A DNA stretch of 58,633 nt from an uncultured Alphaproteobacteria bacterium (GTDB taxonomy: Bacteria; Pseudomonadota; Alphaproteobacteria; HIMB59; GCA-002718135). Of the stretch, positions 17,323 to 19,028 are shown in pieces. Position numbers and translations under genes: made by a program. The first letter of the stretch is position 1; each line of letters begins with the position of its first letter. The notes beneath the pieces are model-generated. The model had not been told where the DNA came from. It saw nothing but the letters and a program-made list of their open reading frames with translations, and searched no databases. The DNA lies in assembly GCA_902604905.1 (NCBI GenBank), contig CACLAN010000004.1, forward strand, positions 1 to 58,633, in the 5' to 3' direction.

Positions 17323-17952
17323 TTATTTTGACTTAAAAAAAGATTTAATAAATGTAAATAAATTTAAGAAAGATCCATACTTACCAAAGAAAATAACATC
17401 TTTTTCAGTAATACTTAAGCATACACAGCCAGTATCTCTTGACGCAATTGGGGTATGTTTTATTTTTTGGTCATTTATCTGAATGTCACCTTTAGAGTAT
17501 TCACCATATTCATCGCAGAAGCTTCCCTCCAAGACTAAGATGAACTCTTTTCCACCATGGGAGTGCAGTGGTACAGAAACTCCAGGGTCCATTTTTATTA
17601 ATTTTAGCTCATCTTTATCGTCGATAGATGCTGTATACTCTTTGAAACCTTTATATACTTGTTTCCAATTTAAATTGTTAAGGTTTCCAAAGTATCTGGT
17701 TACTGGATCTTCTGTATTTAGCGCAGATTTACTATTTTCACCTTTAATGCAATCTGTATATTTTAGGTTTTTAGGATGAATGTTTTCATTATCCATTAGG
17801 TTTTCACCCAACAAATTTTCAAATGTACTGCTAATTCTAGAGGCATTTGAATTTAATTGTAAATATGTCGAAGCAAATAGCGATTTTGCTGGACCTAATA
17901 GCCCTGATGCAAAGTCAAATACAAGCTGGTTTTTTACTACTGTTCCGTTCAT
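17323..17952 (-). CDS. ChrR-like anti-sigma factor lacking the N-terminal zinc ligands
   Basis: A 209-residue partner of the upstream ECF sigma gene, overlapping it as ATGA. The C-terminal cupin keeps the expected metal ligands H130, H132, E136 and H166 (PLHSHGGKE and IKHTP). The N-terminal anti-sigma domain aligns by eye with ChrR of Rhodobacter (TYLQLNSNA against a T-H-L-S-L-C-D-E-C segment). However, the H and two C ligands read Y30, N34 and A37, and the first His position reads V5. Known ChrR holds its sigma in a zinc-dependent domain and releases it under singlet oxygen. Here the sigma-binding half must fold without zinc, or may be altered in function. Confidence 0.8.
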   Translation of the reverse strand: MNGTVVKNQLVFDFASGLLGPAKSLFASTYLQLNSNASRISSTFENLLGENLMDNENIHPKNLKYTDCIKGENSKSALNTEDPVTRYFGNLNNLNWKQVYKGFKEYTASIDDKDELKLIKMDPGVSVPLHSHGGKEFILVLEGSFCDEYGEYSKGDIQINDQKIKHTPIASRDTGCVCLSITEKDVIFFGKYGSFLNLFTFIKSFFKSK

Positions 17953-18485
17953 CTTAAAAATTTCTGCATTCTTGTTAATATAAGCCTTATTTTTGATTTA
18001 ACTGTCCCTAAAGGAATTTCAAGCTCATCTGCAATTTTTTTATGACTTTTATTCTCAAAAAAGTTCATTTTTATCATTATTTTTTGCTGTTCATCCAGTT
18101 CATCATTTATTCTCTCTATCTGTTTTTTTGCTTCATTTTCTTTAATGAGGTCAACTTCTCTATCTTGGTATAAAAACTCTCTTATATCTTCTTCTTTAAA
18201 ATCTATCTTTGAATTTTTCCTGAAAAAGTCTATTTTTTTGTTTCTTGCTATAGTAAAAATCCATGTCGAGAGAGCTGATTTTTCTGAGTTATATAGATCT
18301 GATTTTGCCCAAACTGTGCTCAAAACTTCCTGAGTTAACTCTTCGGAGCTCTCAAATTTTATACTATTTTGGATAAAATAGGCGTTAACTTTTGGGGCAA
18401 AATAATCAAAAATTTCCGAGAAAGCCATTTCGTCGCGGTGTTTTTGAATTTTGCTCATCAAGTTGTTTGAATGTGATTTTTCCAT
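17949..18485 (-). CDS. ECF RNA polymerase sigma factor (RpoE/ECF11-like)
   Basis: A 178-residue group IV sigma factor. Region 2 is seen in FAPKVNAYFIQNSIKFESSEELTQEVLSTVW and WIFTIARNKKIDFFRK. Region 4 helix-turn-helix is in FENKSHKKIADELEIPLGTVKSKIRLILTRM. The pairing with a ChrR-like gene places it near the ECF11 group, which controls singlet-oxygen and lipid-oxidation responses in Rhodobacter and Caulobacter. It is divergent from the ialB-like gene over a 69-base spacer. A clear ECF11 promoter was not found in that spacer, so autoregulation is unproven. Confidence 0.88.
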   Translation of the reverse strand: MEKSHSNNLMSKIQKHRDEMAFSEIFDYFAPKVNAYFIQNSIKFESSEELTQEVLSTVWAKSDLYNSEKSALSTWIFTIARNKKIDFFRKNSKIDFKEEDIREFLYQDREVDLIKENEAKKQIERINDELDEQQKIMIKMNFFENKSHKKIADELEIPLGTVKSKIRLILTRMQKFLR

Positions 18486-18554
18486 ATTTTATAAATTATC
18501 AAACATAGTCTAAACTTTCTTAACTATTTGCATAAGATATACTAAAAGAACCTA

Positions 18555-19028
18555 TTGATGAAAATTTTTATTAAGTTTCTTATAGTACTATATGTAGCAG
18601 TGCCTTCAACCTTAATGGGTTTAGAGAATGGCAAATGGTCTTTTGAGAAAGCTGATGAGTATTGCTACGTAGGTAGTTTAGCAACTGAAACAGATTTACC
18701 CAGTGATAAGAAAAGAGGAAATTTCTATGTTCTTGTTTATAAAAATATTGGTAACCCTGATACTGTAGTTCAAATAGAAGCAGGTTATAGCTACAAAGTC
18801 CCATCTGATATTATCGTAAACATAGATAAAGGAGAATACAAATTTTATACAACAGAAGACTTGCCAACTGCTGCTTGGACAGAAGAAGATGCAAAAGTAA
18901 TTTTTGCTATGAAAAAAGGATTAGAGCTTAAGGTTACAGGTGAGTCTTCAAGAGGCACTATTACAAATGACACCTATACACTTAATGGATTCACTGCTGC
19001 GTATAATCAGTTAATTAACGATTGTTAA
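18555..19028 (+). CDS. IalB-like exported protein
   Basis: A 157-residue protein with an N-terminal signal peptide (about residues 1-22, ending near STLMG) and an all-beta mature region. The ending AMKKGLELKVTGESSRGTITNDTYTLNGFTAA is the conserved part of the invasion-associated locus B family, common in alphaproteobacteria. Two cysteines (in DEYCYVG and the final DC) could form a disulfide. The first ATG is doubled (MM). It directly precedes argG, whose ATG follows the TAA stop. Role unknown outside Bartonella; a periplasmic location is inferred. Confidence 0.75.
   Translation: MMKIFIKFLIVLYVAVPSTLMGLENGKWSFEKADEYCYVGSLATETDLPSDKKRGNFYVLVYKNIGNPDTVVQIEAGYSYKVPSDIIVNIDKGEYKFYTTEDLPTAAWTEEDAKVIFAMKKGLELKVTGESSRGTITNDTYTLNGFTAAYNQLINDC

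Follow-up and report, generated by a model that had tools for sequence, protein, structure and literature searches.

The best described relative of the system reported here is the ChrR/SigE pair of R. sphaeroides. Its anti-sigma factor, ChrR, has two zinc sites, formed by H6, H31, C35 and C38 in the anti-sigma domain (ASD) and by H141, H143, E147 and H177 in the cupin domain; the ligands were identified with single alanine mutants, inhibition needs the ASD zinc, and the response to singlet oxygen needs the cupin (PMC6852236). Where ChrR senses singlet oxygen is debated, in that the genetics points to the cupin, whereas work on an HHCC model peptide places the site of reaction at the zinc finger of the ASD (PMC6432622). 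The motif of the ZAS family is H/C-x24/25-H-x3-C-x2-C (PMC6432622); it is absent in about 44% of class I ASDs and in roughly 28% of the soluble ones, and B. subtilis RsiW binds its sigma independently of zinc (PMC7406223). The ASDs of ChrR and RseA have a common fold, in which the helical bundle is held by either zinc-protein or protein-protein contacts (PMC6852236). Our literature search turned up general statements on zinc-free ASDs, but nothing on ChrR-type proteins that are zinc-free.

The locus studied here lies in a window of 58,633 nucleotides, by which we mean the whole stretch of DNA that was analysed, from a 59%-complete alphaproteobacterial genome of 1.0 Mb that belongs to the marine order HIMB59/AEGEAN-169 (below, HIMB59). 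Its features are as follows.

17323..17952, minus strand: ChrR-type anti-sigma factor, 209 aa, with an ASD devoid of zinc ligands and an intact cupin metal site
17773..17952, minus strand: ASD, residues 1-60, supported by HMMER alignment to 2z2s, the profile-profile match and invariance in 75 homologs
17698..17772, minus strand: variable linker, residues 61-85, containing the invariant, genus-specific D67-C68
17383..17697, minus strand: cupin-like domain, residues 86-190, with H130, H132, E136, H166, C176 and C178
17949..18485, minus strand: cognate ECF sigma factor, 178 aa, SigE/ECF11-like by its best PDB match (SigE, 2q1z_A) and by adjacency
17949..17952, minus strand: ATGA overlap of the stop and start codons of the sigma and anti-sigma genes
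18486..18557, no strand: 72-bp intergenic region between the sigma gene and a divergent IalB-like gene, partly conserved

Both open reading frames were found intact at these positions, as was the ATGA overlap described in the preliminary description; the overlap is present again in most loci of the genus, and the two genes are probably coupled in translation through it. Near-identical loci were recovered from single-cell genomes. The divergent gene (18555-19028, plus strand) codes for a short IalB-domain protein (Pfam PF06776, E 3e-9), and a gene of similar size occupies its place in the sister family of the order (L101, 1930-2406).

Assignment of the 209-aa protein began from the NCBIfam profile TIGR02451 ('ChrR family anti-sigma-E factor'), which matched residues 6-200 over profile positions 3-214 of 216, with a score of 113.7 bits (E 1e-32); the same profile matched 21/21 genus members at E<=0.001, and Pfam Cupin_7 matched the window protein with 49.2 bits. 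Homology is thus clear, but the score falls just under the curated TIGR02451 cut-off of 124.5 bits, and we therefore treat the protein, on its sequence, as a divergent relative of the ChrR type, without claiming formal membership. For the sigma factor, comparison with solved chains placed R. sphaeroides SigE (2q1z_A) first with E 9.6e-34, the second-best chain being at 3.3e-09; its ECF11-like character is judged from this nearest solved relative and from the ChrR-type gene beside it, rather than from an ECF11 profile. Such adjacency was seen in every locus of the HIMB59 order that was read. A Foldseek search with an AlphaFold model of the anti-sigma retrieved the ChrR chains of 2q1z and 2z2s as its first six matches, followed by cupins. 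It is to be noted that the model (pLDDT 64.5) is good in the cupin but poor in residues 37-79 and 185-209; its ASD is weak (helices I-II at pLDDT 54-76, residues 37-79 under 50) and is unfit for claims about side chains. Overall, the two-domain layout, the ASD register, the cupin quartet, the adjacent genes and the SigE-like sigma are all shared with the ECF11 pair ChrR/SigE (2z2s, 2q1z), from which the window protein differs in lacking all four ASD zinc ligands.

The loss of these ligands was read directly from the alignments. With HMMER against solved ChrR (2z2s), ChrR residues 8-54 were aligned and the register was unchanged up to the zinc knuckle, so that H31, C35 and C38 correspond to Y30, N34 and A37, and V5 sits at the expected place of H6; the ZAS motif is accordingly missing. 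All four cupin ligands are kept, H141, H143, E147 and H177 corresponding to H130, H132, E136 and H166. Because the N-terminal segment by itself scored only 3 bits in phmmer, the ASD alone was re-aligned by profile-profile comparison, in which the genus ASD matched 112 zinc-type ASDs over 47 ungapped columns in the same register (probability 92%, E 5.7e-7), while a control against the cupin profile gave a probability of 0.1%. The N-terminal domain is thus homologous to the ChrR ASD, and both halves of what the preliminary description proposed, namely the complete loss in the ASD and the complete retention in the cupin, are borne out. Substitute ligands from other positions were likewise sought: residues 1-58 of the window protein contain neither Cys nor His, Cys is absent from residues 1-60 in all 75 congeneric homologs, and His recurs there at one position alone, H59 (38/75). 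An upstream start adding a zinc-binding segment had also been envisaged; the in-frame upstream extension amounts to 15 residues (IKNKAYINKNAEIFK) and has no Cys, His or ATG. The idea that a sequencing or assembly error, or a wrongly chosen start codon, hides the ligands is refuted by this extension together with the 75 homologs that share the state, many of them from separately sequenced single-cell genomes, and its probability is practically nil.

Within the genus, all 75/75 congeneric proteins, which are 54-100% identical to the window protein, have Y30, N34 and A37 without exception, and position 5 varies; the gene is present in 71/91 genomes of the genus, the window's own included, most of these genomes being incomplete. 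Averaged over more than 1000 pairs in each case, dN/dS was lowest in the cupin (0.035), similar in the ASD (0.086) and the sigma (0.098), and highest in the linker (0.254). These values bear on the suggestion that the sigma might be constitutively free, the protein having given up sigma binding and inhibition and being kept for its cupin alone. Such a state would fit the zinc requirement of inhibition by R. sphaeroides ChrR, the cupin being the most constrained part of the protein, and the existence of zinc-free homologs with no adjacent sigma (see below). Nonetheless, the lack of variation at Y30, N34 and A37 and the adjacency of the two genes in every genus locus read speak against it, and since the ASD is under purifying selection as strong as that on the sigma, neither decay of the ASD nor a constitutively free sigma is likely; to the latter we give only a small probability. 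Between the two interpretations offered in the preliminary description, therefore, zinc-independent, cupin-centred release stands as the best reading, and the free sigma does not.

The most probable explanation, to which we assign a probability of roughly 0.7, is that the locus encodes a working pair of an ECF11-type sigma and a ChrR-type anti-sigma, in which the zinc-free ASD is held by packing and the cupin senses. The three-helix bundle of the ASD would be stabilised by ordinary side-chain packing, as in E. coli RseA, with the invariant Y30, N34 and A37 occupying the old zinc knuckle, and the sigma would be sequestered through helix I (bound to region 4) and helix IV (bound to region 2). 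Sensing and release are predicted to depend on the cupin domain, release probably occurring by a conformational change in, or proteolytic degradation of, the anti-sigma; by analogy, the signal may be singlet oxygen or organic peroxides. As the ASD of R. sphaeroides ChrR must bind zinc for inhibition, sigma binding without zinc is not to be taken for granted here. It has parallels, however, in other anti-sigma factors. RseA of E. coli and RskA of M. tuberculosis, both zinc-free class I anti-sigmas, are membrane proteins without a cupin; the window protein would be like them in doing without zinc to hold its ASD together, and unlike them it is fused to a cupin and has no evident membrane span. 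It would also resemble B. subtilis RsiW in binding sigma independently of zinc, although RsiW retains the zinc motif.

To what extent the loss is shared was next seen in the relatives. The sister family in HIMB59, which includes a single-contig genome of 1.41 Mb, also lacks the ASD ligands, at a syntenic locus (argG, the IalB-like gene, sigma, the ChrR-type gene, a small membrane protein, aldo/keto reductase and Bax1-like). Helices I-III of its ASD have diverged too far for a match to zinc-type ASDs, and the helix-IV part alone matches (E 1e-4); in L101-L114 and L120, Gly stands at the Cys178 position and the sigma is still adjacent. The wider sample consisted of the best-listed TIGR02451 proteins from 386 alphaproteobacterial genomes; outside the order, H-x3-C-x2-C was kept in 112/150 and lacking in 38/150, the latter share (25%) likely being an underestimate because the sample leans to high scorers of a zinc-type profile. 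The cupin quartet HHEH, on the other hand, was kept in 176/176 family proteins sampled. When the ligand columns were left out of the tree, the zinc-site state changed at least 17 times by parsimony over the full tree, or 7 times when only branches with SH-aLRT >=95 were trusted; the count itself gives no direction, and it is simplest to take the zinc site as ancestral because the motif is common to other ZAS proteins. Since the loss is common to the two HIMB59 families, where the locus is syntenic, and to about a quarter of the alphaproteobacterial homologs sampled elsewhere, it is, as far as these sequences tell, a recurrent state of the ChrR family and not a peculiarity of the window protein. 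The open reading frames of L116 and L117 (425 and 463 aa) were considered as sigma-ChrR fusions and rejected; they are read as GC-rich open frames, because tblastn locates a sigma gene of its own immediately upstream of the ChrR-type gene, with ATGA where the two meet. Viral contigs were also searched, and no relative was found in them.

The zinc-free proteins of other alphaproteobacteria are not all alike. L170, L172, L182, L193 and L281 have, like the window protein, lost the ASD ligands and kept the cupin quartet, but with different replacements (YSA, YEA, HSA, HDS and YNQ), and the zinc-free proteins outside the order fall mostly on separate branches of the tree. In the non-HIMB59 subset with enough flanking DNA, a recognisable sigma was adjacent in 12/20 zinc-free and 47/51 zinc-type loci, on which ground some zinc-free relatives may no longer be anti-sigmas and may have another role. 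Such a role is possible for the zinc-free L168, L170, L172, L173, L177, L186, L192 and L198, in whose surrounding DNA, as far as it was examined, there is no recognisable ECF sigma.

Recurrence also bears on the proposal that the ligands were lost to spare zinc, i.e., that in streamlined open-ocean cells the loss is an adaptation to very scarce zinc which leaves the function as it was. The order does consist of marine bacterioplankton with small genomes (PMC10308909), and the zinc-free L168, L170, L172 and L173 all belong to one family with genomes of 1.7-2.0 Mb. Zinc-free homologs occur, however, in genomes of 3-5.6 Mb in other families as well, and the cupin metal site is retained, which makes this proposal rather unlikely; moreover, it answers why the site was lost and not how the protein works, and is as such compatible with the working pair favoured above.

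One more feature of the genus required consideration. The pair Asp67-Cys68 (17749-17754, minus strand) lies inside the fast-evolving linker and is invariant in the genus, and C68 is the best candidate, from sequence conservation, for an added redox element. It could be supposed that a new redox or metal element of this kind, e.g., Cys68 with the cupin residues Cys176 and Cys178, has replaced the ASD zinc site. C68 is found in 75/75 genus proteins despite the variability of the linker, in which only 16% of the zinc-type relatives have any Cys, and Cys176 and Cys178 are invariant in the family sample and in the genus, respectively. The ASD itself, however, has no Cys or conserved His, and the corresponding residues of ChrR, C187 and C189, are dispensable (PMC6852236). 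In addition, C68 is absent from most other ChrR proteins and from the sister family, which also lacks C178 and yet has lost its ASD ligands too. Replacement by such an element is therefore doubtful.

The regulon offered a further comparison with known systems. The ECF11-type promoter motif is TGATCC-N16-CGTA (PMC4336711, which also covers the Shewanella phr and cfa promoters), and unlike in the R. sphaeroides system, no promoter of this type was recognisable here: in the regions scanned, TGAT-N18-20-CGTA was absent from the sense strand both upstream of sigma, where an autoregulatory copy was looked for, and in the photolyase operon loci. Footprinting upstream of sigma gave only a partly conserved block, nearer to the sigma70 -10 element of the divergent IalB-like gene. 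A TGATCC string upstream of the photolyase operon was dismissed as chance, because it falls within rpmG codons and the sister family does not conserve it. The genes themselves are kept in relatives, photolyase, DUF1365 and CMAS genes forming one cluster in five genus genomes and three sister-family genomes; L313 (3939-9136), the only such locus read from end to end, has photolyase, amine oxidase-like flavoprotein, DUF1365, CMAS and DUF2878 genes in this order. This operon follows closely behind an rpmG-like gene (ribosomal protein L33), and the rpmG-photolyase junction recurs in the sister family. Neither DUF1365 nor the photolyase operon was found in the genome of the window itself, which is 59% complete. 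By gene content, the relatives' operon resembles the conserved sigmaE-ChrR regulon (photolyase/amine oxidase/DUF1365/CMAS), of which we take the amine oxidase/DUF1365/CMAS set to be the furan-fatty-acid part. Since no TGATCC-N16-CGTA-type promoter was found either before sigma or in the operon loci, a regulatory link of the HIMB59 sigma to this operon is put forward only as an inference.

With respect to the sensing debate, the zinc-free ChrR proteins constitute a ready-made separation of the two metal sites. Because the ASD is strongly conserved and its ligands were lost repeatedly in the family, the ASD zinc is probably replaceable and the cupin is the part not to be lost; a conserved zinc-free ChrR in bacteria of the sunlit ocean, together with repeated loss of the ASD site and a cupin quartet never lost in the sample, argues that the cupin is indispensable. 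We would more tentatively suggest, as a possibility that falls somewhat short of an even chance, that the HIMB59 pair, as a ChrR system occurring in nature, detects photo-oxidative stress with no zinc finger in its ASD at all, the cupin being the sole sensor, perhaps with help from Cys68. If this is true, the ASD zinc, a proposed target of singlet oxygen in ChrR, would be a replaceable structural part. Some genus genomes (L131-L136) also encode an extra, small single-domain cupin of about 125 aa, which is weakly similar to the ChrR cupin.
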